This document shows positions 25,818-42,376 of a stretch of DNA of 58,581 nt, one piece after another. The notes under the pieces are model-generated. The model did no database searches and was not told the origin of the DNA. It saw only the letters and a program-made list of their open reading frames with translations. The stretch covers positions 1 through 58,581 of the IMG/VR virus record IMGVR_UViG_3300025732_000046. The stretch is one strand, 5' to 3'. How positions within the stretch are numbered: position 1 is the first letter of the stretch; each line of letters opens with the position of its first letter. This DNA is from a virus. Made by a program: the position numbers and the translations under genes.

Positions 25818-28800
25818 TTATTGTTCTGTCGTTGATTGAATAGTTCCTGGAATGTTGAGAAGAGGATCATTACTAGTAATATCAGTACCAGATCTCTGAA
25901 TAGCACTTGGAGGAGTAGTGACCTTAGCAGTAATACTTTCTTGAAGGGTTGCGTATACTCTTGTTTGTGTTCCAGCAGTTTTATAATATCCAGCATAAGA
26001 AATACCCTGATCATAATATACTGCTCCATAATATGCTCTTCCGTCAACATATCCAGTTTGCTTAAGACCAACAAGATCAGTAACTTGAATAAGAACCTGT
26101 TGCTGTCCTGGTGGAAGAATAGGATCTCTTACAACTTTAAAGACGGGTTTGAATGAAGCATTTACGCCAGTAGTAGATGGAAGAGTAATTGAAGGATAAA
26201 CATTAAAAGGACTTCCGGGATTTTGAACTATAACTTCAGTAATCTGTCCAAATGATCCGCACTTATATGAAAGTTGAACGCCATTATTTGGAACTATCTG
26301 AAGTTGATCCTCTCCACAACTATAATTAATTCCCGGATTATCAACAATAACCTTATCTAAAATAAGAGTAACTGGATATCCAGTTCCGGGAGTTTCTGTT
26401 GGTAGATATCCATTTCCAGGATCTTCTACAATAATTTCATCAACAACACCCTTTCCACCGATTAACTTTGAGCAGGGAGGAGGAATTAAAATAGCAGATA
26501 TTCCCATTGGGTTTTGAACCCAAGATGCTTTATTATTGTCACTTAAAACGACATCTTTACTAATATAAAGAGCAACACCTGTTGGATTGTCTTCAGTACT
26601 TGTATCGGGGGGAGTTACATTATCTAAAGTGACTTCAACATCATAATTACCAGCAGTCAAATTAAACGTATATTGAACTTTTTCTCCAATAAAATCAGCA
26701 ATTTCTATTATATCAACTCCACCGATTTTTAATTTTGCACTATTATCTGCTTGCAAATTAAATTTATAAGTTCCACTATATGGAAAATTAACTCCAGACC
26801 AAATTAAGGTAAATACTCCAGGAGAGTTAACATTTGAAGGTGAAACAGAAAAATCATTCATAAATGTACTCCACCTTTTATCACTATATCCAATCAAAGA
26901 AGGACCACTATAAGTAACTCCATTCTTTGTTGGACTTTGTGATGTTGCTGGAAGTGAAGAGGTAGAATTTTTTATTTTATCAATATTAATCTTAATATTT
27001 TCATCATCTCCATCAGCATCACGAATTCCAAGCCTACTTGAACTATTAATAATTGGACCTCTTGCGCCAAGATCAGCACCTATAATTTCAATGGGACCAT
27101 ATTTTTTCCCACCAGTAAAGGTTCCAGATTCTTTAATTGTCTCTTCCGTAGGAACTCCAAGAGTATTACCCTCAAAAAGTCCACCCTCACCAAAGGCACC
27201 AGTTGTTCCTTGCCTAACAAACTTTACTTTCCCGCTATCAGAAGGAATTCTTACTTCTTTAGCTGCTAAACCAGCAATATAAGATGCATCGTTTACTTCC
27301 ATAATAAAAGAAATTTCAGCAGAACCAGTCCCATCAACTTGCAAATAGAAACTAGAACCCTGTTGAATAAATTTTGCCGTTAAATTACTTGAGGTTTCTT
27401 GGGGTCCACCAACTCTCCAATCTTGAGTACTAAAAATCTTTTGGTCTATTACAGAATTAACATTCTCTGGAGTGTTTTGTAACTCTACAGAAATAGTTCT
27501 AAGACCAGGTTCTAAAAATATTTTTTGCGTCTTAACTTGATTTATCAATCCAGATTCAACCCACTTTGCATCACCAGAAGTCAAGACATCAAATGCAAGA
27601 ACACCGTCTACATAAATTTTTGCAGTATTATCTCTTTGAGCTTGAAAAGCATAATAACCTCTATAAGGAATTTCTATTTGCCAAGAATTTTTATAAGTAA
27701 CTCCAGTTCCATCAGTACCAGGAGTATCTAAAGGAAGAATAGGAGATATTGCATAACGATTAAAAAAGTCAGTCCATATCTGATTTCTAACAGGATACCA
27801 AGTTTGATCAGAACCAGGGAATCTTGTAGTCCAAATTGGATTTGGAGGACACTCACCTATTGCAGGAGGTAATTGTTCTTGAGGAACTGGAGGGGTTGGT
27901 GCTTCAATTAACAATGAAACTCCGACTGGATTTTCATTCCAAGATTTTGGAGAAATAACTTCACCAACTTCAATTGTAGATGTAGTTTTATTACCTTTTT
28001 TATCATCAATCGTAATCTTGATGTTTTCATCATCTCCATCAGCATCACGAATTCCAAGCCTACTTGAACTATTAATAATTGGACCTTTTGCACCAACACC
28101 AGCACCTATAATTTCAATAGGACCATATAAATTTCCTGCAGTAAAATTGCCAGATTTTTTAATGATTTCTTCTTCAAGATATGAACCTTCAACTAAAGTA
28201 GGTTGCCCTATAGTTTGATTCTTGGCATTTACACTCGGTAGTCCTTGTGTTCTAACAAATTTTACTTTACCATTATCTGATGGAATCCTAACTTCGTTGG
28301 CAGCAAGTCCAGCAATAATAGGACTATCATTAACCTCCATAACAAAATCAATTTCTCCAGAACCAGTCCCATCAACTTGAAGATAGAAACTTGATCCTTT
28401 CTGAATAAACTTTGCTTTTATACTTGAACTACTCGTTATTGTTTGAGTTTGAGTTTCAGTTGCAGGAGTATTTAATAAATCAATTCTTATGATATGATTT
28501 CCTTCTTGAATTGTTTTTTGCAATGGAGTTGGGTTCTGATTAAAAGTACCAAGATTTCCAACTAATGCATCATCAATATAAACCTGTCCTGTATCATCAC
28601 AAACTCCTCTAAAAATATACTCACCAGTAATTGGAAAATTATATTCCCATTCCATCTTAAAAACTTTACCTGCCTCATCAGTTCCTCTTGTATCCGAAGG
28701 TTTAATAGGAGAAACTGCATAGGTATTCATAAACTCTCCCCATTGTGAGAAAGTTACATTTGTCGTATCTTGAGTTGCATACTCAATATCAAGAGCAGTA

Positions 28801-29495
28801 ATTCTATCAGGTAGAGAATCTCTTGTTGTCCAAAAGGGATACTCTAATGCCTTTTGAAATGCTTCTATTTCTTGTTTAATAGGATCTTCAGTTATGTCCG
28901 TATATGAATTTGGATCCCAAGGACCAAGTTCTTCCCCATCAAGACCATACATTAATCCATAACTTTCTGCATCACCTTCACATATTTGATACTCTTCAAA
29001 ATCTTCTTCCCCATCATACACTTCAAGTTGATCAACAGTTTCACCTAAAACTGCAGTAAAAACAGCACCACTACCATTTTGGCAAGCATCGTTTGCAGTT
29101 ACATATGGTGGATATTGATATCCATTTCCCCCAGATACAATATCAATTGCTAAGATTGCACCATCAGCACCAACGACTGGATTTCCTACCGCACCAATTC
29201 CACCACCACCAGAAATTTGAACTACTGGGGGTCCACATTCAACATAATTTTGAATTCCACCACACTCATCCTTTGTTGATAATAAATCATCGGGAGTAAG
29301 TTTATTTACTTCATTGATATTCAAATATTTAATACTATTATTTCCATCCGTAAAGATAAAAACCGTTCCTGGATTATTCTGAGCGTAACTATTTGCCTCA
29401 CATATAGTAACACCATCAACATATCCAAGAGTTGGATCAATGTATCCAACCCTGATGTCATCTGTAGTAGGTGGTCCAGATAAATTAAAGGTCAT
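25818..29495 (-). CDS. Large virion protein with repeated PA14-like modules
   Basis: 1225 aa. Two long repeats (about residues 180-520 and 560-870) each contain an Sxxx(F/W)..(F/Y)MN.YA(V/I)SP entry and a G.Y.F....D.....YIDD..V PA14-like beta-sandwich. Each also has SFYLQVDGTGS, AA(N/K)EVRIPSD.GKVKFVR, and a GPIINSSSRLGIRDADGDDEN segment. A third, shorter PA14-like module follows near 890-990. PA14 domains bind carbohydrate in many proteins, so a role in host-surface contact is plausible. It sits among hub and spike genes. A 63-base perfect repeat encodes part of the duplicated module. Confidence 0.75.
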   Translation of the reverse strand: MTFNLSGPPTTDDIRVGYIDPTLGYVDGVTICEANSYAQNNPGTVFIFTDGNNSIKYLNINEVNKLTPDDLLSTKDECGGIQNYVECGPPVVQISGGGGIGAVGNPVVGADGAILAIDIVSGGNGYQYPPYVTANDACQNGSGAVFTAVLGETVDQLEVYDGEEDFEEYQICEGDAESYGLMYGLDGEELGPWDPNSYTDITEDPIKQEIEAFQKALEYPFWTTRDSLPDRITALDIEYATQDTTNVTFSQWGEFMNTYAVSPIKPSDTRGTDEAGKVFKMEWEYNFPITGEYIFRGVCDDTGQVYIDDALVGNLGTFNQNPTPLQKTIQEGNHIIRIDLLNTPATETQTQTITSSSSIKAKFIQKGSSFYLQVDGTGSGEIDFVMEVNDSPIIAGLAANEVRIPSDNGKVKFVRTQGLPSVNAKNQTIGQPTLVEGSYLEEEIIKKSGNFTAGNLYGPIEIIGAGVGAKGPIINSSSRLGIRDADGDDENIKITIDDKKGNKTTSTIEVGEVISPKSWNENPVGVSLLIEAPTPPVPQEQLPPAIGECPPNPIWTTRFPGSDQTWYPVRNQIWTDFFNRYAISPILPLDTPGTDGTGVTYKNSWQIEIPYRGYYAFQAQRDNTAKIYVDGVLAFDVLTSGDAKWVESGLINQVKTQKIFLEPGLRTISVELQNTPENVNSVIDQKIFSTQDWRVGGPQETSSNLTAKFIQQGSSFYLQVDGTGSAEISFIMEVNDASYIAGLAAKEVRIPSDSGKVKFVRQGTTGAFGEGGLFEGNTLGVPTEETIKESGTFTGGKKYGPIEIIGADLGARGPIINSSSRLGIRDADGDDENIKINIDKIKNSTSSLPATSQSPTKNGVTYSGPSLIGYSDKRWSTFMNDFSVSPSNVNSPGVFTLIWSGVNFPYSGTYKFNLQADNSAKLKIGGVDIIEIADFIGEKVQYTFNLTAGNYDVEVTLDNVTPPDTSTEDNPTGVALYISKDVVLSDNNKASWVQNPMGISAILIPPPCSKLIGGKGVVDEIIVEDPGNGYLPTETPGTGYPVTLILDKVIVDNPGINYSCGEDQLQIVPNNGVQLSYKCGSFGQITEVIVQNPGSPFNVYPSITLPSTTGVNASFKPVFKVVRDPILPPGQQQVLIQVTDLVGLKQTGYVDGRAYYGAVYYDQGISYAGYYKTAGTQTRVYATLQESITAKVTTPPSAIQRSGTDITSNDPLLNIPGTIQSTTEQ
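26998..27060. repeat. 63-base direct repeat, copy 1
   Basis: Identical to 28024-28086, 1,026 bases away within the 1225-aa gene. It encodes the GPIINSSSRLGIRDADGDDEN part of the repeated module. Flanking sequence is similar but not identical, suggesting recent duplication or gene conversion. Confidence 0.85.
28024..28086. repeat. 63-base direct repeat, copy 2
   Basis: Second identical copy of 26998-27060, in the same reading frame. The spacing of 1,026 bases is a multiple of three (342 codons), so exchange between copies would remove one whole module without a frameshift. Confidence 0.85.
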
Positions 29496-29527: not shown

Positions 29528-31303
29528 TTAGGCAAAAGTAACCTGCCCACTTTCAACTGCTTGAATTGCTTCATCTCTTGTCCCAAAATCAACATCTGGT
29601 TGATTTTGACTTGGAGTAGCATAAGGTGTTTGAGTTGGTTGAACACTTGCAGTAGATTGTTGTGCTGCTTTATCAACTTCAGACGCTCTTGGTTGTTGAG
29701 GTTCTGGTGCTGCTCCACTACCATTTGCAAGAGTATAATAATCAGACGCTGCACAGTTTGGTTTTAAATCACATCCAAAAATATTTAACTTTATGTTTTC
29801 AAAACTCAATGCAGATGTAATACTACCACTAATATCACCAATTATATTTTTAGTAGATGATATTGCTCCAGAAACTACTCCAAGTTGAGATTGAGTATCA
29901 TTTAAAAAACTGTTCACACTATCTAAAGCATTATTTACTCCAGTGGTCATTTCTTCCATATTTAATGCTATTAAATCTCCAGTAAGTGTTTCAACGCTAC
30001 AGATTGGAGTTGTTGGAGTTTTAACTTGTCCCTCTTCAGTAGGAGGAAGTTCTTGCTGAACTTGTTCCTCTAAAAGACCTTGAATTAATCCACAAAGATT
30101 CCCAGTTATTTTATTATATAAACAAGTAATTAATTCAGTTACTGATGTTTTCAGATCAACATACATATACCTCATATTTGGTGGCATGAGTTCAACCGTA
30201 GGAGACAATGCTTTATTAATTTGTTTTAGAACATACTCCTTTATCTTATCAAAAACTACCTTCATATATTTTGCAATCTTACAAGCAAAATCCGAAATAA
30301 TACTTTGAATATCGCCAAGTTTATTTGATACTGCATCAACATAACTTTGAGCAGCATTTAATATTTTATCAATATCTTTTGTTAAATTTTCAATCTCAGT
30401 TTGAATTCCTTTCAATGCAGATTTAACTTGATCGCAAGGAGACATCAAAACAGTTTTGCGATTATAATAATCATTTCTAACTACATCTGCTGCAGATACT
30501 TCGTGAACGGCATCTACATTTTCTTTAGTTGCTCCAGGTTGAGATGGAGATCCGGGAGAATTTGCTTCCTGACATCTTGCTTTAATACCATCAGAAACTG
30601 CTTGTTGTATAAACTGATCTCTCTCTGTTCCAGTTAATGCCCTTGCGTCTGCTTCTGCAATAGCACTTTGCTGATCGGCAAATTGTTGTTTTGTTAAAGA
30701 TTTATCAGCACGTAGTCCGTATTGATTTACAGAAACTCCAGGTGGAGGTGGAGCACATTCTCCCGATTGTTCAGCATCTTTAGGTTTATTGATTACAAGT
30801 CCTTCATCAGGAACCTTAAGATTTGGATCTTTATTGTCATCTGCGGGAGTAGCATATCCACTTGTTGCCAAACTTCCAGGTTGAGTATTCGTTACTCTAC
30901 TATCACCTATTGTTGTTGAAAGAGAAGTTTGTGCATTATTTCCAAGCACTCCCATAATAACAGGAACTTGCTGTTCCTGTCCATCCAAAAAGAACCCAAA
31001 GACAAACATTCCTTGTCTTAGGTTTGCAGTTGCGCCAGCATTTGCCTGCCCACCGCCTGCAGTGACAGGGTACATTATCTGTGCCCAAGGAAGTTGATCG
31101 GAAGGTATTTCAGTTTCTCCTTGGTCATGAAGACCTATAATTCTAACTTTATACCTTCTACCCCATCCAGGAACCTGGTCTTTACTTTCAAATTTTCCCG
31201 CTAAAATATTATCTCGCCAAGTTGAATCACTGGCGATTTGACCAATCCACCAATTAAATGTTGCCCCTAAGAAACCGGGATTAAATAAAGAACCTTCAGT
31301 CAT
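29528..31303 (-). CDS. gp5: Baseplate hub protein gp5-like, without lysozyme domain
   Basis: 591 aa. The N-terminus matches the T4 gp5 OB-fold: FNWWIGQIASD...GRRYKVRIIGLHDQG...DQLPWAQIMYPVTAGG...GMFVFGFFLDGQEQQVPVIMG. T4 gp5 continues with a lysozyme and a beta-helix. Neither is present here. The rest is coiled-coil-like (DQVKSALKGIQTEIENLTKDIDK) and Gln/Pro/Thr-rich at the end. The needle function is probably taken by 25110-25778. The start overlaps the upstream 70-aa gene by TAATG. Confidence 0.82.
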   Translation of the reverse strand: MTEGSLFNPGFLGATFNWWIGQIASDSTWRDNILAGKFESKDQVPGWGRRYKVRIIGLHDQGETEIPSDQLPWAQIMYPVTAGGGQANAGATANLRQGMFVFGFFLDGQEQQVPVIMGVLGNNAQTSLSTTIGDSRVTNTQPGSLATSGYATPADDNKDPNLKVPDEGLVINKPKDAEQSGECAPPPPGVSVNQYGLRADKSLTKQQFADQQSAIAEADARALTGTERDQFIQQAVSDGIKARCQEANSPGSPSQPGATKENVDAVHEVSAADVVRNDYYNRKTVLMSPCDQVKSALKGIQTEIENLTKDIDKILNAAQSYVDAVSNKLGDIQSIISDFACKIAKYMKVVFDKIKEYVLKQINKALSPTVELMPPNMRYMYVDLKTSVTELITCLYNKITGNLCGLIQGLLEEQVQQELPPTEEGQVKTPTTPICSVETLTGDLIALNMEEMTTGVNNALDSVNSFLNDTQSQLGVVSGAISSTKNIIGDISGSITSALSFENIKLNIFGCDLKPNCAASDYYTLANGSGAAPEPQQPRASEVDKAAQQSTASVQPTQTPYATPSQNQPDVDFGTRDEAIQAVESGQVTFA

Positions 31304-31554: not shown

Positions 31555-32949
31555 TTATATCGCACTATTGGAAGGTGTTCCTTTTCTACCAACAGAATCT
31601 CTTACAAGCGTTAACTTAGTGTAACCCCCATTTGCTAAACTAATATAATGACATAGATCAGCAATGACATAAAATCCACCAAACTGCTTGTTCATTTCCG
31701 GATTATCTTTGCTTGATAGTTCTGGAGAATCTATGAAGATATAATCTCCTGCGTGTAAACTAAAGTCGGCAGTAATTGTAATCGTTACTTGAGTTGAAAA
31801 GAACTGATTATATCTCATTACAGATTGATTCAAAATATTTTTTGGATCAAAATTTTCTTCTTTAGATTTTTCAATTTGTTGAGTGGTATCACCTGTAGGC
31901 AAAGAACCCTTATCAATTAACATATACTGAGTTCTTGAGAAATCTTTATTTGCTTCGGTTCTATTAAACTCAGAATTATACTTTGGTAAATTTTTACCTG
32001 CTTTTTGAAGATTTGTTTCAGCACCGGGTTTGCCTTCATCTGCACTTGCATTTGGAGTTATTACCTCATAGTAGCAAGTAAAGGGATCAAATAAAATTGT
32101 TCTTGTAGAATAAGTTCCAATTTCTAATTTAGATTGAACGTCTCCTGCTGCAGTGTTGACGTTATGTTCAAGTACTTTACCTGAGTATCCTTCAGGAATA
32201 GTTGTACCTCTTCCATCTGGAGTTTGGTTATTTACTAAACTCTTGTAACTTTTTTTAGACCCACTGGGATCAGTATCAGATAAAAGCCCTTCTATTGATT
32301 TAAATTTAAATCCATCAGATGTTTCAAAAAAGAAAAATCCAGCACTATTACCTTTTGCTTTTTGTGTTTTTGGTACTGACTTTCTCGCCAACCACAAAAG
32401 AGTATAGAAAGGTCTACGATTGTTTCCAAGAAAATTATAATTATTTTCAGTTTCTTCTATATCAGTTTTTTTAGAAGTCCCAAGATATGCTTGATCTGTT
32501 AGAATTTTTGTTATGTGGTCAGATATTTTCCCATCAAATCTTGTATTTAAAGCGGTCTTGTAGTTAAGAATTGATTCCTTAGAAACTAAGTTAAGGGCAA
32601 CAGCAGTTTTCTGAGTATCTTGAGTCAATGGTTTTATGTTATCAATATACATATCAACTTTTATTTCTACTTGATTCGGGTCTGTAATTTTTATAGTTGT
32701 TTTTTCAGTGCCCACTAAAGGCATACCCTCAACTAGAGTTTTATAAGATCCCTCAGATTCAACAGTTTTACCTGTTTCAACATAAATTATATCCATTTTA
32801 ATAAAAGGACTTAGAACACTTTCAAAGTAATATAAGTCACTAATTAAAGTGGAGATATCCTTTTGATTCTTTTGATCATTGGATGTAATTATAAACTGAG
32901 AAATATTATAATCTCTAGATTGTGCAGCAGTGATTGGTGTATTTGCCAT
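31555..32949 (-). CDS. Baseplate hub protein, gp27-like
   Basis: 464 aa. LYYFESVLSPFIKMDIIYVETGK...LVEGMPLVGTEKTTIKI near the N-terminus is the pattern of gp27/VgrG-type hub domains (ESI.SPF...I.I.D...L.....I.G.E.I.I.I). Later segments include GKVLEHNVNT and DFSLHAGDYIFIDSPEL, fitting the second barrel-like domain. Its place directly upstream of gp5, with one small gene between, matches the hub partnership of gp27 and gp5. Identity is by pattern and context. Confidence 0.65.
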   Translation of the reverse strand: MANTPITAAQSRDYNISQFIITSNDQKNQKDISTLISDLYYFESVLSPFIKMDIIYVETGKTVESEGSYKTLVEGMPLVGTEKTTIKITDPNQVEIKVDMYIDNIKPLTQDTQKTAVALNLVSKESILNYKTALNTRFDGKISDHITKILTDQAYLGTSKKTDIEETENNYNFLGNNRRPFYTLLWLARKSVPKTQKAKGNSAGFFFFETSDGFKFKSIEGLLSDTDPSGSKKSYKSLVNNQTPDGRGTTIPEGYSGKVLEHNVNTAAGDVQSKLEIGTYSTRTILFDPFTCYYEVITPNASADEGKPGAETNLQKAGKNLPKYNSEFNRTEANKDFSRTQYMLIDKGSLPTGDTTQQIEKSKEENFDPKNILNQSVMRYNQFFSTQVTITITADFSLHAGDYIFIDSPELSSKDNPEMNKQFGGFYVIADLCHYISLANGGYTKLTLVRDSVGRKGTPSNSAI

Positions 32950-32981: not shown

Positions 32982-35900
32982 TTACATATACAAACCATCC
33001 ATAGATGGATCATCGCCTTCTTCGCTATCAGAAGAACCAGATCCACTAAAGATAGGTATGACTTGAGGGGGAACAACAGTTACTGAAGAACTTTCTGGGA
33101 CTTGGTATGTATAATCGTTTTCTGTTTCTGGATATCCATCTTCAGTATATTGACTTAAAATAGATACTAAATTCTCAGATGCTCTTCTTCTTTGACTAAC
33201 GGTTTCAGTTTTATTAATAATATCATAGAACTTAATTCCAAACAATCTTACAGAATCCGCATCAACAACATATTCTCCGGCGTGAGTTAGGACCATTTGG
33301 GTTTTATCAATGTAACCGCCGTGAAATGCTTGAGATATTGGTCCAGGAGAAGATCCAGATTCGGCCATATGAATAGTATATCCTTCACCCGTTCCCAGAT
33401 AATTTTTAGCGGCAACACTTAGATCTAACATATGATTTGAAGAATGCCCAGAAACTCCCGGTCCAACATCATTTACCCTAACTACTGCTTTTTTCCCATT
33501 TGGACCAGTAACTATAACATTAAATCCTCTTTTTAAAGTTCTACCACCAGGAAAACGTGATGCTGGAACAGTCATTGAAGATGGCAATCTTGCAATCAAA
33601 GGAGGAAAAGCAGCAGCAGAAAATACATTTGATCTATAACCTTCTCCAGTAGAAGTAGCGGGCAATCCTTCTCTAGTTTTTGCCCCACTAGCATTAATAC
33701 CACCTAAAGATGGATCGTAGTATGTAGTTTTAGCTCCACTAGCAAGAAGTTCTCCAGGTTTTCCACTGCCAGCACCTAATTGCATTTTATCTTGCGATTG
33801 TAAAGCAACATCTTTATCTCTCTTTATCTTCAAGTTCGCGTAATCTTCATCAGTTCCGTGGAGTTTATCCTTTCCTCCCCTATATCCACCATAAAAATAG
33901 AATCCATATTTACTCGCCATTTGAGAAAGTTTTTCATTAATTCCACCCTTTGCTTTACTAAAATCATTTCCAACTCCAAGTATTCTAACTCTTGCACCTA
34001 TTGATTTAAGATGTTTTAATTGTGCTTCCACCGAATCCCAATCTCCAGTAGAGTTAGCAATACCAGTAGATAAATCAATCAAAGCACCCTTCAAAGCATC
34101 CCCCCTTGCTTTTAGTATCCCAAGAACAGCAGAAGAATTTCTACCAACCTGCGTATCAGATGCATTATCACCATTACCCGATCTTCCTGCAAATCCGTGA
34201 GCAATACTATCTCCAATTACAAACTGTGCTTGACCTCCAAATTGTGCCATAGGATTTTCAGATCCACCACCAGAACTTGGTTTATTTGATTTTTCTTTTG
34301 CAGAGGTTCTACTCTTCTTTAAAGTTAATTGATCTTTCAACTCATCCAAAATGCTATTAATATTATTTGATATAGAATCTTTCACCATACTCGTCACCCA
34401 TTTTGCAATGTTTACGGAACCAAATTCATCGCTAATAGATGTATCTTTTCCGGGCGATTTAACAGTACCTAGGATTTCATTTAAAAAGTTATCTAATCCA
34501 ACTCCAACCGCTTTGTAATCACCTTCGTTAGGTTTATCTCCAAATATTGCTTTAATACCCAATTCAAGTATTGGGTGAATAAATTTAGATCTGCTAGCAA
34601 TGCCGTAAGTATTTGTTAGATACTTATAAGAATTTACTAATCCAGGATCACTTGGATTAGTATAAAAAGTTTCAATTTTTGATACTTTACTTTCTGGATA
34701 AGGGAGAAGACCACCAACATCAGATCCAGGTTTAATTGGTGCGGTCGTTACCTTTTCAACTCTTCGTGCTCTTAATTTTTTTCCGACAGTTCTTGTAACA
34801 GCACCTTCATAAACTCCACCACGGGTTACAGCACCTCCAGATGCATAACCCATAGATTTAACTGCTTGATCTCCAAATAAACTACCAAAAGATCCTTGTT
34901 GTTTTGCAAGGGTTCCAAAACTTAATGTGTTTACTATCTGGCGGATTTGCTCTCTAATTCTTGCATCAAGTTTTCCAAGATTTTCTCTCTGCTGTTTAAT
35001 TCCATCAGCATCTCCAGTAAGGGACATAATACCAAAATTAATTAATTCAATGGCATATCTAAATGGAGCACCTATAATGTCAAGTAGAGTTCCAATTCCT
35101 GTGGAAACAAAATTATAAAATCTCATTCCGGGAATTGCAATTGTATTATAAAATCCAACCTTCAGAAATCTAGTAAAAGGATTTGGATCTTTTTGTGCTT
35201 CTGCTAATCCATCATATGCATCTCTTTCAACCTTAGTAGTAAACTTCCTCAATTGGAACATTCCTTCGCCAAGGGCAGAAGAAATGAGACCAACACCAGC
35301 AACAATTCCTGCTGCTGCACGGGTTGATATTTGTGCTGCTCCGCGAATTGCTGCCTGCTGTGCTGCTCTTTGTCCCGCTTGCTGAATAACCCTATCCTTT
35401 ACAAGATCTGTTGCTTGCTGTGCTGCTCCAGCATTTGAATCACTTTCAACCAAGTCACTGAACAACATTCCAGCAATTAACATAGAATTCATTACCTTGT
35501 TGGCAAGGTCTAGAGTTCTATTATAATTTTTTAATCCAGCATCTCCCCCAAGAAGTTTTGCCTGCTGTTTTCCAAAATCAACTATCTTATAAACTTTATC
35601 AACAAAAGTGGCAAATGCATTTAATATAGAACCAGAGAATTCAAGAATGAAATCACTAAACTTCAAAGCACCCATCAACACACCTTTAAGTTTTGGAAGT
35701 TGTGGTAATAATTTAATTGCAAAGGCACCTAATAAAATTTTAAATAAAAAGTCCTTTACAGCATCAAGAAATCCTAATCTTGGTACGGGTATTTTATTTG
35801 ATACTTCTCTCTCCTTAGAATCAGGACGACTCTCTACTTTCTTTTCTCTCTCTTCAGATCTTTTCCTTTCATTAAAGATTCTCTGTTTTTTAAAAGCAAC

Positions 35901-35999
35901 ATCTCTAAATTTATTTCTTTCACCGACAAGTTTCTCTACACGAATAACTTGCTTCTTTATAATATTGGCAGTTAAATTTCTGGGTTCAATATATGCCAT
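32982..35999 (-). CDS. Hub/tail protein with SGNH-like and RlpA-like (double-psi barrel) domains
   Basis: 1005 aa. A charged N-terminus is followed by a hydrophobic segment (FLDAVKDFLFKILLGAFAIKLL, about residue 80) and alanine-rich helices. From about 590, FVIGDSIAHG (GDS nucleophile block) with DKLHGTDEDY near 713 suggests an SGNH hydrolase. From about 755 to 870, TYYDPSLGGINASGAKT and VRVNDVGPG...HMLDLSVAAKNYLG resemble a double-psi barrel of RlpA/expansin/lytic transglycosylase type. The C-terminus has GEYVVDADSVRLFG, a motif shared in form with the next two genes. Likely acts on the cell wall during infection. Confidence 0.7.
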   Translation of the reverse strand: MAYIEPRNLTANIIKKQVIRVEKLVGERNKFRDVAFKKQRIFNERKRSEEREKKVESRPDSKEREVSNKIPVPRLGFLDAVKDFLFKILLGAFAIKLLPQLPKLKGVLMGALKFSDFILEFSGSILNAFATFVDKVYKIVDFGKQQAKLLGGDAGLKNYNRTLDLANKVMNSMLIAGMLFSDLVESDSNAGAAQQATDLVKDRVIQQAGQRAAQQAAIRGAAQISTRAAAGIVAGVGLISSALGEGMFQLRKFTTKVERDAYDGLAEAQKDPNPFTRFLKVGFYNTIAIPGMRFYNFVSTGIGTLLDIIGAPFRYAIELINFGIMSLTGDADGIKQQRENLGKLDARIREQIRQIVNTLSFGTLAKQQGSFGSLFGDQAVKSMGYASGGAVTRGGVYEGAVTRTVGKKLRARRVEKVTTAPIKPGSDVGGLLPYPESKVSKIETFYTNPSDPGLVNSYKYLTNTYGIASRSKFIHPILELGIKAIFGDKPNEGDYKAVGVGLDNFLNEILGTVKSPGKDTSISDEFGSVNIAKWVTSMVKDSISNNINSILDELKDQLTLKKSRTSAKEKSNKPSSGGGSENPMAQFGGQAQFVIGDSIAHGFAGRSGNGDNASDTQVGRNSSAVLGILKARGDALKGALIDLSTGIANSTGDWDSVEAQLKHLKSIGARVRILGVGNDFSKAKGGINEKLSQMASKYGFYFYGGYRGGKDKLHGTDEDYANLKIKRDKDVALQSQDKMQLGAGSGKPGELLASGAKTTYYDPSLGGINASGAKTREGLPATSTGEGYRSNVFSAAAFPPLIARLPSSMTVPASRFPGGRTLKRGFNVIVTGPNGKKAVVRVNDVGPGVSGHSSNHMLDLSVAAKNYLGTGEGYTIHMAESGSSPGPISQAFHGGYIDKTQMVLTHAGEYVVDADSVRLFGIKFYDIINKTETVSQRRRASENLVSILSQYTEDGYPETENDYTYQVPESSSVTVVPPQVIPIFSGSGSSDSEEGDDPSMDGLYM

Positions 36000-36002
36000 T
36001 TG

Positions 36003-39000
36003 TTAACTCCTCATACTTAACATATCATATTCATAATCAGAAGAACCACCACCAGAACTTCCACCGGCAGATGAAATAGGAATAAACATAGGAGGAGACA
36101 TCATAATCTCAGATTCATCTTCTTCAAAAATTACATCAGGTTTTTGGTCAATTTTTCTTCCAGTGTATCTACTCAAATGTTCAATTAATTTTGAAGAAGA
36201 ACTTGCTCTTTGTTTTTCATTCTCAACATTATTAATTAGAGAAAAGAATTGATTCCCCCCAAACAAATCAACAGAGTCCTTATCAATAACATATTCACCT
36301 TTGTGAAGTAACCTCATACCACCAGTAAGTGTAGGACCACCATACTCTCTACCAATAGTAAGATACTTAATATATGGCATAGGATCTTTACTTCCATATG
36401 CAGAAGTTATAGTGTCGTGTGATTCAAAGTGAACGTGAGCACCAGTAGAACTTCCCGTACTTCCCACATAACCAAGAAGTTGCCCAGCAACTGTCTTTTG
36501 TCCCTTTGTAACTGACGGGGTATCTCTCATATGAGCCATTCTAAACATTTGTTTCAAAGAAGGAACCCAAATATCAACAACATTACCATATCCACCACTA
36601 AATCCAGCAAAAACAACTTCTCCAGGTGCTCTAATTGCTATTGGTTTTCCCTGAGGAGCACCAACATCAACACCTCCATGATTTCTACCCCATCTAGGTC
36701 CAAACCTAGAAGTAATAGGATAACCACTAACAGTTCCACCAGCAGTTTCTCCTGCAGGTTGAACTTGTCCACCAATATTAGTTGCATCTGGTATTTCTGG
36801 ATCACAAACACAATCAGACACATTTGTAGCAGGAGATCCTGGAGCAATTTTTGCAGTTGATGATTCTCCTTTATATTTTTTAACACTTGCCTGATATCTT
36901 CCCAAAAATCCATCAGTGGCATTATTCTTCTCTGCTCCTCCAGGAAGAGAAGTCCAAGTTCCACTCAATTTATTTGCAACTCTTAATGGATCTGATTGCA
37001 AATCCTTAATTATTCCATTAGATCCATAACCATATGCATCAACAGCAAGTTGCCAGGCAGCTCTATCTTGATTTGCTGGAGAAAAATCTTTTAATCCTAA
37101 TTTCTTAGCAAGAGGATCCCAAGTAGTAGATAAAAATTGATATCTTCCTGCAGCATTACTTGTCAATCCAGGTCTCCAAGGAATTGGTGCATCTATTCTT
37201 GGATGATCTTTATATCCATTATTAAATGTTTCTCCGGGAAACCTAGAATTATATCCTTTTGCTTCTGAACCAGCAATAGCATCCAAAAGTGCCTTTCCCT
37301 CTGGTGGTATTTCTCCAGCAAAGACCTCTCCTCCCCCACCACCCTCTGTAGGACATTCACAATCCATCTTATCTGAAGTTTTAACATTTTCAGGTTCTTT
37401 AAGACCTAATTGAATTCTTAACTGTGATTGAATTTGGTCAAATGTACCACTGAGTATTTTAGTGATCTCTCCATTGATGGCAGAAGATAATCCATCAGAT
37501 CCCAATTTCAAAACAATCTGCCTATAAATTTCTGGATTTTTATCATATATTCCTCTCATTAAAAAATTAGAAATGGAATCGGAAACAATATTATAATCTT
37601 GAGATGAAATTCTATCACCCATTACAGATTTCATAGTCATTCCCATCAAAGAACCCAAAGAATCCACATTAGATAACTTTTTTTGAGAACGAACAATAAA
37701 ATTATATTGATTCATTGTATTATTATCTGGAGTATATGGGAATACTTTTTCAATCATTTTTTCACCGCCAATAGCAGAACCTGGATTTACATCAGACAAT
37801 TCCCGTTCAAATGTTCTAGGAATTTTTACTTTGTTTTCGTCACCAACAGTTCTTGCATATCCACCACCAGCAAATTTTTTAATTACCAAACCTCCACGAT
37901 AATATCCCATATCTCTTGCTGCTTTTTCTCCATATAAAGATCCAAAAGAACCGGGAGTTTGTAACTTCTGAGAAACTCCTTTCATACCTATAAACTGAAA
38001 CAAAGGAGCAAGAATAGAAAAATGTTCTCTAATTCCATCTCTTACTCTTGCATCAAACTTTCCAAGATTTTTATTCTGTTTCTCCAATCCCTTTCGGTCA
38101 TCATTTAATTTCATTATTGCTGCCCGTATCAATTCAACACCATATCTAAATGGAGCACCTACAATATCAAACATTACTCCAGTCCCATTCAATAACCAAA
38201 TAGCAGGACCAAGAGTTTTAGATAACCATCCAAAAAATCCTCTCTTCAAAAATCTAGTAATTGGATTCTTGTCCTGAGATGCTTCTGCAAATTTTCCAGT
38301 TGTCCACGATTCAAGTTGCTTTCCAAATCTTTTAATCTGAAATGCACCTTCACCTAAAGCAGAAGATAGCAATCCAACACCAAGAATAATTCCAGTAGCA
38401 CCTAAAGGACCAATAGCAGATCTAACTCCCTGCTTTGCTGCCTCCTGCGTTGCCCTTTTTATCCCTTCCTGCTTTATTGTTTCTTCAATAATTTCTTCAC
38501 CAGCATCTATTGCTCCCCTTGCTGCAGGACCAACAGTACCAACTCCGCCAAAATCAGTAAACAACATTCCAGCAATCAAAATTGAATTCAATAAAGAATT
38601 CGTTTGATTATTCATACTATCAAGAGCATCAATTGCCTTCTGCCCGCCAATACTCTTTACCAATTTCTTAGCATTGTCCGCTGCTTGATAACCCTTATCA
38701 ACAAAAGTGACAAGTCCATTTAAAAGTTTTCCACTCATATCAAGTATAAAATCACTAACCTTTAACAATAAAGGGAGTAATCTTAGTAATTGGGGGAGGT
38801 ATTTTAAAAGACGAATGCCAATGAATCCAAGTAAAGTACTTGTAATAAATTGCTTTAAAGAATCAAGAAAACTCATTCTTTTACCTATGGATTTTATAGG
38901 TCTTCCAAGAAATCCAAGAGTTCTTTCCAATACGGATTCATAATTAATTCTTGATTCTCTTTCAGAATTTTTTCTTCGCGTTTCACTATTCTTCTTCTGA

Positions 39001-39098
39001 AGAATTAAAGAAGATTTAATTAACTTCTCTTTAGAAATAAATTGTTTCTTAAGAGAAACAAAACTACCTGTTAAAGGAGAAGTTATTTTTGCCATCAC
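36003..39098 (-). CDS. Hub/tail protein with lambda R-like lytic transglycosylase and M23 peptidase domains
   Basis: 1031 aa. The N-terminal ~300 residues parallel those of the 1005-aa gene (basic start, SFLDSLKQFITSTLLGFIGIRLL, NSILIAGMLFTD, LLSSALGEG). About residues 603-745 match the lambda R endolysin pattern: AIAGSEAKGYNSRF, DHPRI, AGRYQFLSTTWD, LGLKDFSPANQD, SGTWTSLPGG, with the Glu of GSE as likely catalytic residue. About 790-900 are an M23 metallopeptidase: SRFGPRWGRNHGGVDVGAP and GAHVHFES (His/Asp and H-x-H zinc ligands). A GEYVIDKDSVDLFG motif follows. Two peptidoglycan-cutting activities in one tail protein suggest local wall penetration. The end overlaps the start region of the upstream gene by ATGA. 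Confidence 0.85.
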   Translation of the reverse strand: MMAKITSPLTGSFVSLKKQFISKEKLIKSSLILQKKNSETRRKNSERESRINYESVLERTLGFLGRPIKSIGKRMSFLDSLKQFITSTLLGFIGIRLLKYLPQLLRLLPLLLKVSDFILDMSGKLLNGLVTFVDKGYQAADNAKKLVKSIGGQKAIDALDSMNNQTNSLLNSILIAGMLFTDFGGVGTVGPAARGAIDAGEEIIEETIKQEGIKRATQEAAKQGVRSAIGPLGATGIILGVGLLSSALGEGAFQIKRFGKQLESWTTGKFAEASQDKNPITRFLKRGFFGWLSKTLGPAIWLLNGTGVMFDIVGAPFRYGVELIRAAIMKLNDDRKGLEKQNKNLGKFDARVRDGIREHFSILAPLFQFIGMKGVSQKLQTPGSFGSLYGEKAARDMGYYRGGLVIKKFAGGGYARTVGDENKVKIPRTFERELSDVNPGSAIGGEKMIEKVFPYTPDNNTMNQYNFIVRSQKKLSNVDSLGSLMGMTMKSVMGDRISSQDYNIVSDSISNFLMRGIYDKNPEIYRQIVLKLGSDGLSSAINGEITKILSGTFDQIQSQLRIQLGLKEPENVKTSDKMDCECPTEGGGGGEVFAGEIPPEGKALLDAIAGSEAKGYNSRFPGETFNNGYKDHPRIDAPIPWRPGLTSNAAGRYQFLSTTWDPLAKKLGLKDFSPANQDRAAWQLAVDAYGYGSNGIIKDLQSDPLRVANKLSGTWTSLPGGAEKNNATDGFLGRYQASVKKYKGESSTAKIAPGSPATNVSDCVCDPEIPDATNIGGQVQPAGETAGGTVSGYPITSRFGPRWGRNHGGVDVGAPQGKPIAIRAPGEVVFAGFSGGYGNVVDIWVPSLKQMFRMAHMRDTPSVTKGQKTVAGQLLGYVGSTGSSTGAHVHFESHDTITSAYGSKDPMPYIKYLTIGREYGGPTLTGGMRLLHKGEYVIDKDSVDLFGGNQFFSLINNVENEKQRASSSSKLIEHLSRYTGRKIDQKPDVIFEEDESEIMMSPPMFIPISSAGGSSGGGSSDYEYDMLSMRS

Positions 39099-41461
39099 TT
39101 AATACCGTAGATCTTTGCATTCTTCTTATTTCCACCAGAAGATGCTGGGAACTTTGGAACCGATGGTTTTCCACCACCCCTTCCTCCACCCATTCCTCCA
39201 CCAGCAACTTGTGGTTTTGCTTTTACAACTTTGGGTGCTGGTTTTGGCGTTGGAGTTATTGGTTTTCTATTAGGAGATGATTTTGCTAATCGTGCTTGTC
39301 TTGCTTTTTGTGCGGCAGCATAATCTTTATAATACTTACCATCAGAAGAGGAATAATATCTACCGATAGAAGCAGCACCTGCCTGCTTTGTTCTTGATTC
39401 TGATGCTTTATCTTGTGCTGCAACTCGTGCTTTATCTTTTTCACTCCCAAACATTCTCGTAAGTCCTCTACCTATTCCACCAAGCATTCCACCACGACCA
39501 GCAAACTCTGCTTTTCCTGAAGCACTTTCTGTTTCAAATCTTCTTCCCTTTCCACTACCCTCGCCACTTAATCTTTGCAATCTTTCTTTTGAAGATAACT
39601 TAGATAAACTTGCCTCTTTAGATTTGGTATTTGCTCTATAATAATCTGAAGATTTTATTCCAGCAAATCCACCGATTTTTATTCCAGCAAATCCACCGAT
39701 TCCCTTTGCCTTTTCAAAAGCAGCATCACGAGCACCAGGAAACTTAGATTGATATGGAGTATATTTCATTTCAGTTAGGTTTGATACATTTGACTGCTTT
39801 GCCAAATAATCTTTTTTAAATTTTTCATAATTATAAGTTTCATCAAATGCTGCCTTTTGATATAATGGATTTGTCGGATCACTAAATGCTTTATTCCACT
39901 CTTTTCTTATTGCATCATCGGCAGATCTTCTCTGCTTCCCCTGCTGCATAATTCTATTTCTCTGAGCAGCATCTTCTGCGATTCTTCTTTGTTGATCTGC
40001 CGTTAATCTTCCACTTCCAACTCCAGTAAGAGCATTAATAGAACCAACAATACCCTTTGCAGAAGATTTTGCTGCACTTGTTATTTCTGAGGGATTTGTA
40101 ATACCAGTCCCTTTAAATTTAGATGGATTTATTCCAATAGGAATAGTTAATCCATTAATCGTCGTTGTTTTTGTTCCCCTTCCCGCTTGTGCTTTGAGTT
40201 CTCTAGTTAAAGCAGTTTCAGTACGAACAGGTTTTTTATTTCTTTTTGCCTCTGCTGCAGCATCCTCAGAAGCATATTGTGCTTTTCTTCTTGCACTCTC
40301 TTTGTCATAAGAACCAGCACCGTGCTTAGCATCGTACTTTGCTCTTAACTCATCAACCCCACCAATAAGTCCACCTCCAGCAGCGTGAGGAACTCCGCGT
40401 ATAATTTTGGGTTGATTAGTTCCACCCCCAGCAGCGTTCATTGCCTCCAGAGTATTCACACCAAACTTTTGAACTGCCCCGCGAGACATTACAAACTCAC
40501 CATCAGTAAGCATCGCAGGAACCTTATCAATTCCCTTTGGTCCAGATACTACACCATTCATTCCTTGCATTAAACTTGCAAGTCCACCAGAACCAAAGAA
40601 TGCAGTAAATGGACTGACCTTAGAACTTAATCCTGATGTTGCATTAGTAAATAAGTCCTTAATACCTGCAAATCCACCACCAAAAGCACCCATAGCAGGA
40701 GTTGCAGGTGCTTCGGGAACATCAAGTTGTGGTGCTTCTCCACCACCCATCATATTATTAACTGCTATTCCAGTTCCTATAGTAGCAGCTGCAGCAATTC
40801 CACCCCTGAGAGCAAATCCTTTTAATCCTCCAAGTTTTCCACCACCAGCAAATACCGATGCAATTCCTTTCTTCTTTAATATCTGACCCGTTAAAATTGC
40901 CTTTGTTAATCGGGCAGCAATTACAACAAGACGGGCAGTTACTCCTATAGCAACTCCCGCAACCTTTCTTACAATTCTACCAAATCCAGTTCCAAATAAA
41001 ATATAACCAGCGACTAATGAAGGCCACCAATCCTGCAAAAACCGCATAATAGAGCGGACTTTGCTTCGGTTATTTTCATCAGCAAACCAATTCAATAATA
41101 ATATTAGAGCGCGACCAAGAAATATAGTTACAAAAAACTGTATAATTTGATCTAAGATACTTTTAACTGGGGCAACAACTGCCGTTGCTACATTTTTAAC
41201 GGTAGCAAAAGATCTCTCTAAATTTAATTCTATTCCCTTTCTTCTACTTCTTTCTTGTTCCTGTCTGGTTTGATCAGCATCTCTCACAGTTTGCTTATTT
41301 TGCTGTGAGAGAAGTTGTATAATATTTGTTAACGATTTTGATATATCTTTTAGAACAGCAGTATCGGCAGGAGAAGCAACAAGTTGTTGCTGAGGAGCAA
41401 CCGCAGCGGACTGTACTGTAGATGTTCTACCCATCAGCCTTTGTGCGTTTACTGGTGCCAT
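39095..41461 (-). CDS. Tail protein with membrane-like segments, tape-measure-like
   Basis: 788 aa. Near residues 100-190 it has strongly hydrophobic segments (ILDQIIQFFVTIFLGRALILLLNW split by charged residues, then WWPSLVAGYILFGTGFG and VAGVAIGVTARLVVIAARL). A Gly-rich hydrophobic stretch follows, then GFGVNT-like GEFVMSRGAVQKFGVNTLEAMN, a motif found near the end of tape-measure and hub proteins and parallel to GEYVIDKDSV in the two genes downstream. The C-terminal half is basic and low-complexity with no enzyme domain. It may be the tape-measure or gp29-like component, but this is tentative. Confidence 0.6.
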   Translation of the reverse strand: MAPVNAQRLMGRTSTVQSAAVAPQQQLVASPADTAVLKDISKSLTNIIQLLSQQNKQTVRDADQTRQEQERSRRKGIELNLERSFATVKNVATAVVAPVKSILDQIIQFFVTIFLGRALILLLNWFADENNRSKVRSIMRFLQDWWPSLVAGYILFGTGFGRIVRKVAGVAIGVTARLVVIAARLTKAILTGQILKKKGIASVFAGGGKLGGLKGFALRGGIAAAATIGTGIAVNNMMGGGEAPQLDVPEAPATPAMGAFGGGFAGIKDLFTNATSGLSSKVSPFTAFFGSGGLASLMQGMNGVVSGPKGIDKVPAMLTDGEFVMSRGAVQKFGVNTLEAMNAAGGGTNQPKIIRGVPHAAGGGLIGGVDELRAKYDAKHGAGSYDKESARRKAQYASEDAAAEAKRNKKPVRTETALTRELKAQAGRGTKTTTINGLTIPIGINPSKFKGTGITNPSEITSAAKSSAKGIVGSINALTGVGSGRLTADQQRRIAEDAAQRNRIMQQGKQRRSADDAIRKEWNKAFSDPTNPLYQKAAFDETYNYEKFKKDYLAKQSNVSNLTEMKYTPYQSKFPGARDAAFEKAKGIGGFAGIKIGGFAGIKSSDYYRANTKSKEASLSKLSSKERLQRLSGEGSGKGRRFETESASGKAEFAGRGGMLGGIGRGLTRMFGSEKDKARVAAQDKASESRTKQAGAASIGRYYSSSDGKYYKDYAAAQKARQARLAKSSPNRKPITPTPKPAPKVVKAKPQVAGGGMGGGRGGGKPSVPKFPASSGGNKKNAKIYGIK

Positions 41462-41654: not shown

Positions 41655-41669
41655 TGCTACGCGAAAAAA
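41639..41669 (-). promoter_or_regulatory. Programmed -1 ribosomal frameshift signal at end of gp26
   Basis: The slippery heptamer T TTT TTC (41669-41663) is in the correct phase of gp26, two codons before its TAG (41659-41657). After a 10-base spacer there is a hairpin, GGTCC-ATAT-GGACC (41652-41639). Slipping back one base gives Arg-Val-Ala then Met-Val-His, entering the 60-aa frame without a stop. Confidence 0.7.
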
Positions 41670-42376
41670 GATGCTAACCCTTCAAGAACAACTTCACTTT
41701 CTACTCCAGTTTTTGGATTCTTAATCTGAAGTTTATGAGAAAGTTTTGGCATTGTTTCAAAAAACTTCTCAATTTCTTTAAATTGAGAAGAATTCATTTG
41801 ATCTAAAAATTCAGTGAGTTCTTTTTTGGTAACATCTGCTGCTGCCCATACTTCATCCTCAGTAAAAATCTTATCAATACAAGATGCAATCAGATCAAAA
41901 GATTGCTCCATAGCATTTTCATTTTTAAAATCAAAATTGGTCTTAATGAATTGATCCAACGATGGATACTTCATTTCCATCATAATAGTACTATCAACCT
42001 TTATTCTATTTGTATGCTCTTCACTTTTCTGAACTTTAATATCATCTAAATTGATAGAAACGGTGACATTTGTTTCATTATCGTCCGGACAAATAATATT
42101 AACTTCTACTTCTTCTCCAACAGATTTACCACGAATATTTAAAAACAAATACTCAATATCAAACGTAGGTAAAGTTTCTACCTTAACATCTTTTGTCAGG
42201 ATGCAATTTTTAATGACTGTTTTAATAGCATTAGTAATCTGCTTATTATCTTCACTCTCTAAAGCAATTACTAATAACTTCTCCTCTTTTACAAGAAATG
42301 GTCTATAACGAATATTTTTTCCAGTTGATGGCAATTCCAACTCATATGTTGGTGTAGAAATCTTAGGTAAAGGCAT
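41657..42376 (-). CDS. gp26: Baseplate hub subunit / tail assembly chaperone gp26
   Basis: 239 aa. YELELPSTGKNIRYRPFLVKEEKLLVIALES at the N-terminus is the hallmark of the T4 gp26/T4_baseplate family (PF12322). The middle (IEYLFLNIRGKSVGEEVEVNIIC) and the C-terminal helices also fit. The gene ends in the frameshift site at 41663-41669, which suggests that part of the product is extended into the next frame. A late promoter-like AATAAATA lies upstream at 42404-42411. Confidence 0.88.
   Translation of the reverse strand: MPLPKISTPTYELELPSTGKNIRYRPFLVKEEKLLVIALESEDNKQITNAIKTVIKNCILTKDVKVETLPTFDIEYLFLNIRGKSVGEEVEVNIICPDDNETNVTVSINLDDIKVQKSEEHTNRIKVDSTIMMEMKYPSLDQFIKTNFDFKNENAMEQSFDLIASCIDKIFTEDEVWAAADVTKKELTEFLDQMNSSQFKEIEKFFETMPKLSHKLQIKNPKTGVESEVVLEGLASFFA

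Follow-up and report, generated by a model that had tools for sequence, protein, structure and literature searches.

Locus and Gene Order

The window examined here is the whole 58,581 nucleotides (nt) of the IMG/VR virus record IMGVR_UViG_3300025732_000046, and our analysis concerns three consecutive large genes within it, termed A, B, and C, which are encoded among tail genes in the order gp26-gp51-A-B-C-gp27-gp5. A first-pass annotation of this DNA had described three related hub or tail proteins of 788, 1031, and 1005 amino acids (aa). Minus-strand open reading frames (ORFs) of these lengths sit exactly where it had placed them, inside the tail/hub gene block:

39095..41461, minus strand: gene A, 788-aa ORF for a tape-measure-like tail protein, with no enzyme domain detected by Pfam
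36003..39098, minus strand: gene B, 1031-aa ORF with a GTG start, comprising a scaffold, two enzyme cassettes, and an anchor
32982..35999, minus strand: gene C, 1005-aa ORF, a tandem duplicate of B according to trees, with its own cassettes
41657..42376, minus strand: gp26-like protein (PF12322, 263 bits), the anchor for our synteny survey
31555..32949, minus strand: gp27-like hub protein (phrog_350, E 3e-87), labeled baseplate hub or central spike in relatives
29528..31303, minus strand: gp5-like spike (phrog_33098) with a Pfam OB domain and no lysozyme domain

The gp26-like protein is ~80% identical to those of the Kyanoviridae phages S-SM2, Bellamy, and SynMITS9220M01, which identifies the window as a T4-like cyanophage; the virus probably infects cyanobacteria. 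In a survey anchored on gp26 (80 contigs, the best 80 of at least 595 matches), two large genes occupied 34 of the 35 complete slots between gp26 and gp27, and three genes occupied the remaining one. Likewise, all 16 phage-record loci have two large genes between gp51 and gp27 (gp26-gp51-[A,B]-gp27). Three genes were present in 17/17 complete slots (10 non-identical) on contigs anchored on B/C, as expected from how these contigs were found.

Scaffold, Cassettes, and Anchor of B and C

Both B and C appear to be built from an N-terminal scaffold of ~560-575 residues with hydrophobic helices and a C-terminal anchor of ~110 residues, with one or two cassettes between them. In the window, their parts are as follows:

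37374..39098, minus strand: B residues 1-575, scaffold conserved at 43-71% identity across 16 relatives whose cassettes differ
36864..37304, minus strand: B residues 599-745, GH104 (lambda R-like) cassette, PDB 1am7/3d3d at E 7e-14
36363..36731, minus strand: B residues 790-912, M23 cassette, PF01551 at 65.5 bits over residues 806-894
36006..36347, minus strand: B residues 918-1031, C-terminal anchor containing GEYVIDKDSVDLFGG, conserved at 52-68% identity across 16 relatives
34320..35999, minus strand: C residues 1-560, scaffold conserved at 45-76% identity across 18 relatives
33795..34238, minus strand: C residues 588-735, predicted SGNH/GDSL-hydrolase fold (S598; G646/N649; D711/H714), from structure comparison and conserved residues
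33330..33734, minus strand: C residues 756-890, RlpA-like double-psi beta-barrel (DPBB) cassette, a weak assignment (DPBB_1 E 7e-4, sub-threshold)
32985..33317, minus strand: C residues 895-1005, C-terminal anchor containing GEYVVDADSVRLFG, conserved at 44-74% identity across 18 relatives

The lambda R-like and M23 domains originally attributed to the 1031-aa protein were both recovered. E612 of B is aligned with lambda R E19, which we take to be the catalytic residue of that enzyme, and the M23 metal ligands (HxxxD and HxH) are present in the alignment as H807, D811, H856, H888, and H890. By sequence comparison, therefore, the two domains are identified as GH104 and M23, with their predicted catalytic residues in place. 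The linker between the two slots, AKIxPxSPAANVxxCxCDP, is conserved in many relatives and is a possible recombination site.

For slot 1 of C, the structure-comparison rows covering residues 581-743 are nearly all SGNH esterases (Z 6.2-7.2, below Z 8, and rmsd, the root-mean-square deviation, 3.2-5.3, on a low-confidence model), and they include the peptidoglycan O-acetyltransferase PatB, sialate O-acetylesterase, and TesA. In the same list, helical chains of other folds reach Z 7-8 on a different part of the model. S598, G646, and N649 are present in 15/15 rows with the domain, and H714 in 13/15. Foldseek returned no match with E <= 0.001 for the C model, Pfam and NCBIfam gave no match to the domain, and none of its profile matches to PDB sequences was significant. 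The fold and conserved residues together point to an SGNH hydrolase fold, and this domain may act on something other than the wall.

The DPBB assignment for slot 2 of C is weak: DPBB_1 scored 20.2 bits, below the Pfam cut-off of 28.8, and the best profile match in PDB was PA4485 at an E of 0.15, and no Asp could be assigned as the catalytic one. The DPBB match recurs in the relative L010 and in the isolate RB11-B, whose DPBB cassette is 73% identical to that of window C. Of the SGNH-like and RlpA-like domains proposed earlier for the 1005-aa protein, the former is thus upheld by fold and residues, without a family match, while the latter stays below threshold. A free-standing version of this cassette type occurs in S-CREM1 as a small separate gene near gp5 annotated as rare lipoprotein A (L140:8674-9036).

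Kinship of the Three Proteins

B and C are 36% identical over B residues 16-593 (E 1e-83) and 41% identical over B residues 925-1021, with a profile-profile E of 2e-119; the first ~590 and last ~100 residues are common to both, and the middles differ. On these comparisons, their homology is beyond doubt. A tree built on the first 590 residues resolves the 17 B rows and the 19 C rows (full-length ORFs only) as sister groups with support of 100/98 and 100/99; L029 is the earliest branch inside both groups, and the B proteins of two-gene phages fall outside both. Sister groups with a shared first branch indicate that a single duplication of B in this lineage explains C. The two-gene B proteins were hand-picked for length and spread (24 of 51 rows, then 20 of 50); a second tree, which left out four long-branched rows (L004, L007, L008, and L068), and a second profile comparison, both with L037 moved to the three-gene set, gave the same outcome.

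The relationship of A to the others is confined to the following segment:

40994..41287, minus strand: A residues 59-156, helical and hydrophobic, homologous to the N-terminal part of B/C by profile-profile comparison with controls

With clean two-gene sets, the B and A profiles matched at E 2.4e-15 over only ~120 N-terminal residues, and the match was weaker with the window clade alone (E 6e-5, probability 65%). When the A profiles were reversed or locally shuffled as controls, none of 36 comparisons fell below E 7e-4. A is therefore best regarded, from its profile, as an older relative of B/C that lies outside their recent duplication.

The first-pass annotation had treated all three proteins as duplicated paralogs with membrane-like N-terminal segments and a common GE(Y/F)V motif. 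Hydrophobic stretches were indeed found in the N-terminal parts of A, B, and C, and duplication is supported for B and C as one event, whereas A joins them through its N-terminal ~120 residues only. The motif is also present in all three (A 321, B 934, and C 908), but homology of the A copy to the B/C copies was unsupported in a profile comparison (probability under 1%). Pfam gave nothing above cut-off and no cell-wall domain on window A, so that the proposed set of three does not extend to A, which is outside the duplication and without a Pfam-detected wall domain.

Exchange of Cassettes Between Close Relatives

The cassettes found by Pfam differ widely among relatives (L numbers denote loci). 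In C, we found Amidase_2 in L012 and, below cut-off, in L029; Phage_lysozyme2 in L013, L025, L027, and L028; SLT_3 in L014; Hydrolase_2 in L026 (below cut-off) and in slot 1 of L030, L034, and L035 (near cut-off); and GH24 with a weak M15 in L033. In B, M23 occupies slot 2 in L012, L013, L014, L034, and L037, SLT_3 occupies slot 1 in L032 (which also has M15_4) and L035, and Phage_lysozyme2 is present in L033 and, below cut-off, in L030 and L034. Pfam detected no domain in 3 of 17 C proteins scanned (L018, L019, and L020) or in 6 of 15 B proteins scanned (L018, L019, L020, L023, L028, and L029), and the C protein of L023 gave just a sub-threshold match to an unrelated family. M15-like cassettes are recognizable by eye in C of L019, L020, and L023, for which Pfam made no call.

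Compared with window C, 13 of the 14 relatives that keep the SGNH domain have scaffolds of 45-76% identity and a slot 2 of 9-18%, i.e., unrelated; in the fourteenth, L010, slot 2 is 88% identical. Several pairs with near-identical scaffolds differ in their cassettes (aa identity in percent for scaffold/slot 1/slot 2/anchor). The C proteins of L025 and L026 (97/96/20/100) have scaffolds that are 94% identical at fourfold sites, and carry Phage_lysozyme2 and Hydrolase_2, respectively, in slot 2. The C proteins of L010 and L013 give 94/92/16/92. For L033 and L034, both slots are unlike in B (95/18/12/97) as well as in C (96/22/26/86). The B proteins of L032 and L035 (100/100/29/71) lie in loci that show no difference in the 7.5 kb before slot 2 of B and diverge from there on. 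The reverse pattern is seen between L030 and L034, with 49% identity in the B scaffold and 90% in slot 1. Of the 136 B pairs, 19 have cassettes more alike than their scaffolds by at least 12 points; the same holds for 55 of the 171 C pairs, many of these 55 reflecting a better conserved SGNH domain and not transfer.

Most of these swaps are between IMG/VR contigs, and the complete identity of L032 and L035 up to a breakpoint could itself be produced by a chimera, so that chimeric metagenome assembly might be suspected of creating the pattern. However, the same pattern is found in two genes between the genomes of the isolates S-B05 and RB11-B, which are both listed with the host Synechococcus MW02 and whose gp26 and gp27 are 98 and 97% identical in nt. 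Their B genes are 93% identical in nt over residues 1-430, unalignable to residue 854, and 91% identical over the last ~87 residues, and their A genes are 99% identical over residues 1-542 and 94% over the last 52, with the middle replaced. The first B cassette of RB11-B is DPBB, the remainder of its B being far from that of the window, while the cassette part of S-B05 B matched M23 only among PDB sequences. The middle parts of both A proteins found nothing among PDB sequences and are amidase-like by eye only. Given the isolates, the several independent pairs, and swap junctions that fall at linkers and leave reading frames open, we regard an assembly artefact as highly improbable.

The sequence comparisons thus indicate that scaffold and anchor are kept while cassettes are exchanged between close relatives, and that this exchange is recent. 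The set of complementary enzymes proposed earlier is thereby contradicted, if a fixed set is meant. Its suitability for the thick cyanobacterial wall is conjectural, and the unlike cassettes of S-B05 and RB11-B, which are listed with one and the same host strain, speak against a simple adjustment to a single wall. We tentatively suggest, at somewhat less than even confidence, that A/B/C form an exchange rack, in which conserved ends and linkers let phages trade wall cutters by short-term recombination in an arms race parallel to tail-fibre/receptor exchange, the duplication of B having added slots.

Among open-licence PMC articles, we found no published report of cassette exchange on proteins of this type. 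Mosaic domains in tail proteins and endolysins are known from a study of domain shuffling (Smug et al., 2023; PMC10684548). Recent mosaicism in tape-measure proteins could not be confirmed in that study, whereas here near-identical scaffolds hold different cassettes.

Gene A and the Tape-Measure Question

A second segment of A bears on its possible function:

40367..40579, minus strand: A residues 295-365 with the DKVPAMLTDGEFVMSRGAVQKFG motif, a 71-aa piece compared with PHROG

This piece matched 21 PHROG families, 13 of which carry the name tail length tape measure protein (lowest E among the 13, 3e-4), and for the corresponding piece of Bellamy A, tape-measure families made up 12 of 17 matches (best 6e-8). 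The motif of A, judged by these profiles, belongs to a type common in tape-measure families. The A protein of L028 (L028:3046-5214) has a second, diverged copy of the VPAML..EFVMS..AV motif.

A may accordingly be read as the tape measure itself, with B and C as further tape-measure subunits lining the tube and the cassettes as passengers; this is a special form of the explanation that we prefer and does not exclude it. The matches to 13 tape-measure families among 21, the N-terminal segment common to A and B/C, and the identification of the remaining long proteins scanned in the window as fibres and a tail tube cap speak for such an arrangement. A is Gly-rich, however, and less helical than T4 gp29, with no match to it, and its length spreads from 387 to 1567 aa across the slot survey. 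The ratio of A length to tail length also varies over the four phages with published tails that were compared (933 aa/138 nm, 1016/165, 950/173, and 1565/418; S-PM2, S-SZBM1, whose tail is given as a range, S-H34, and MS29 were left out). We therefore hold this arrangement to be possible and, on balance, rather doubtful.

S-CREM2 has the 418-nm tail, and the available portion of the paper describing it assigns no tape measure. Its 2668-aa ORF124 was considered as a candidate and rejected, being assigned to phrog_358/877 (unknown function) and not strongly helical on a crude scale. By eye, its ORF208 (L127:4484-9181) shows stretches resembling amidase, NlpC/CHAP, and collagen in addition to GH19, together with a long tract rich in Asn, Ser, and Thr. 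The A protein of S-PM2 (L131:11886-15389) has an N-terminal match to the ADP-ribosyltransferase (ART) family PF01129 (E 1.3e-5, above the Pfam cut-off) in addition to a tail-lysozyme domain; the ART-like match possibly represents an enzyme delivered at entry.

The gp5-Like Spike and the Location of Wall Enzymes

No lysozyme domain was detected by Pfam at E <= 1e-3 in the gp5-like proteins of nine phages including the window (0/9), and an OB domain was seen in six of them. The comparison originally drawn with T4, which carries one lysozyme on gp5, therefore misses that the spike here has no Pfam lysozyme domain. In two-gene phages, enzymes are found on A and B: glucosaminidase and VanY in S-SCSM1, GH19 and GH24 in S-CREM2, and Phage_lysozyme2 and M23 in both S-PM2 and B23. 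As the spike lacks a detectable lysozyme domain, wall cutting would rest on the A/B/C-type proteins, and we suggest that the name "tail lysozyme" given to gp5 proteins of T4-like cyanophages is a misnomer. T4 gp5 serves the same step, the local opening of the wall by a tail enzyme; unlike in T4, the gp5-like proteins here are without Pfam lysozyme domains, and window B and C gave no Gp5_OB or Phage_lysozyme match at E <= 1 in Pfam.

Beside gp5, the window encodes a 1225-aa protein (25818-29495) with three PA14 stretches; relatives have one at the corresponding position. Farther away lies a gene for a 923-aa Gly/Thr-rich, collagen-like fibre protein (9408-12179; 27.5% Gly and 15.8% Thr).

Virion Evidence and a Proposed Role in Entry

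Equivalents of A and B have been detected in the virions of two relatives. ORF213 and ORF214 of S-SCSM1 were detected in purified virions by mass spectrometry (PMC9602691), as were ORF208 and ORF209 of S-CREM2, with 73 and 71 unique peptides (PMC10665884). By position, these two pairs are A and B; because of this gene place and their scaffold, we infer that they are tail proteins. Taken together, the evidence makes it likely that A/B/C are distal tail-interior proteins of the tape-measure/hub region that present exchangeable peptidoglycan hydrolases at entry; their interior position, release, membrane role, and the selective reason for exchange are inferred.

Under this proposal, the proteins would be stored in the distal tail, their anchors close to the hub and their hydrophobic helices poised for use, until sheath contraction releases them through the gp27-gp5 hub. 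The cassettes could then open the peptidoglycan locally, with GH104 and perhaps DPBB cutting glycan strands and M23 cutting peptide links. 6-O-acetyl groups on peptidoglycan block lytic transglycosylases, and the SGNH domain, if it is a peptidoglycan O-acetylesterase, could clear them. The hydrophobic N-terminal portions of the proteins may assist in moving the tail or DNA through the inner membrane. A single duplication of B in this lineage has produced C and doubled the cassette slots, and recombination between relatives exchanges cassettes while scaffold and anchor stay.

Several observations weigh against this proposal. The authors of both virion studies regarded the two proteins as non-structural and suggested virion carriage, carry-over, or capsid packaging (PMC9602691, PMC10665884), and the virion evidence stems from S-SCSM1 and S-CREM2 only. 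A, B, and C showed no profile similarity to single T4 gp27, gp28, and gp29 sequences, and the rise of A length with tail length is not constant over the four phages. The AlphaFold model of A has a mean predicted local distance difference test score (pLDDT) of 47, with one long helix (residues 31-126, low confidence), and gave no match with E <= 0.001 to viral models; that of C is poor (mean pLDDT 36), its best part being the SGNH domain (pLDDT 50-77). A divergent gp5 lysozyme could escape Pfam. In the two-gene phages, Pfam left 5 of 8 A proteins and 4 of 11 B proteins without a wall domain, although one of these five, DSL-LC02 A, is annotated as GH104 and aligns with lambda R.

Ejection proteins have hydrophobic helices and enzyme domains, which A/B/C resemble, and the proteins might accordingly be internal capsid proteins ejected with the DNA. 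This was suggested for ORF208/209 by the authors of the S-CREM2 study (PMC10665884). Such a location is unlikely in view of the conserved place in the hub operon beside gp26, gp51, and gp27 and the tape-measure motif in A. It is more improbable still that A/B/C serve as endolysins that lyse the cell from within. Their domains belong to endolysin types and the records of S-CREM2, S-N03, DSL-LC02, and RB11-B carry the annotation "endolysin," but in every locus examined the genes are part of the baseplate hub block, the enzymes are attached to a large non-enzymatic scaffold, and equivalents are present in the virions of two isolates (PMC9602691, PMC10665884).

Relation to Known Systems and Significance

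A cyanophage baseplate protein with several hydrolase domains has been described before, as hub gp15 of the Anabaena myophage A-1(L), which has lysozyme, endoglucanase, and peptidase domains, two of them active on host cells (PMC10966104). B and C resemble it in this respect; it is, however, one hub protein with a barrel domain, whereas in the present system exchangeable cassettes sit on two or three scaffold proteins encoded beside gp27. Lysin-bearing tape-measure proteins (TM4, T5, and phiIPLA35; PMC6116005) also have hydrolase domains on tail-interior proteins, and the motif of A is likewise tape-measure-like; in contrast to them, the enzymes here are mainly on the related proteins B and C, and the ruler function is putative. 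The closest counterparts, S-SCSM1 ORF213/214 and S-CREM2 ORF208/209, share the gene slot, the enzyme domains, and the presence in virions, but comprise two genes instead of three, and the papers treat the products as lytic proteins carried along, not as tail components (PMC9602691, PMC10665884).

The usual description of tail lysins is of a single, fixed enzyme in each phage; in the present system, it is the holder that is kept and the enzyme that is traded. S-B05 and RB11-B combine a near-identical tail background and the same host strain with different wall cutters, and a direct test is therefore possible. The conserved, unassigned A/B pair provides candidates for the missing tape-measure or hub components of T4-like cyanophages. 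This family is abundant in the sea. Between close relatives of the window phage, the tools for entry seem to be exchanged as tail fibres are.

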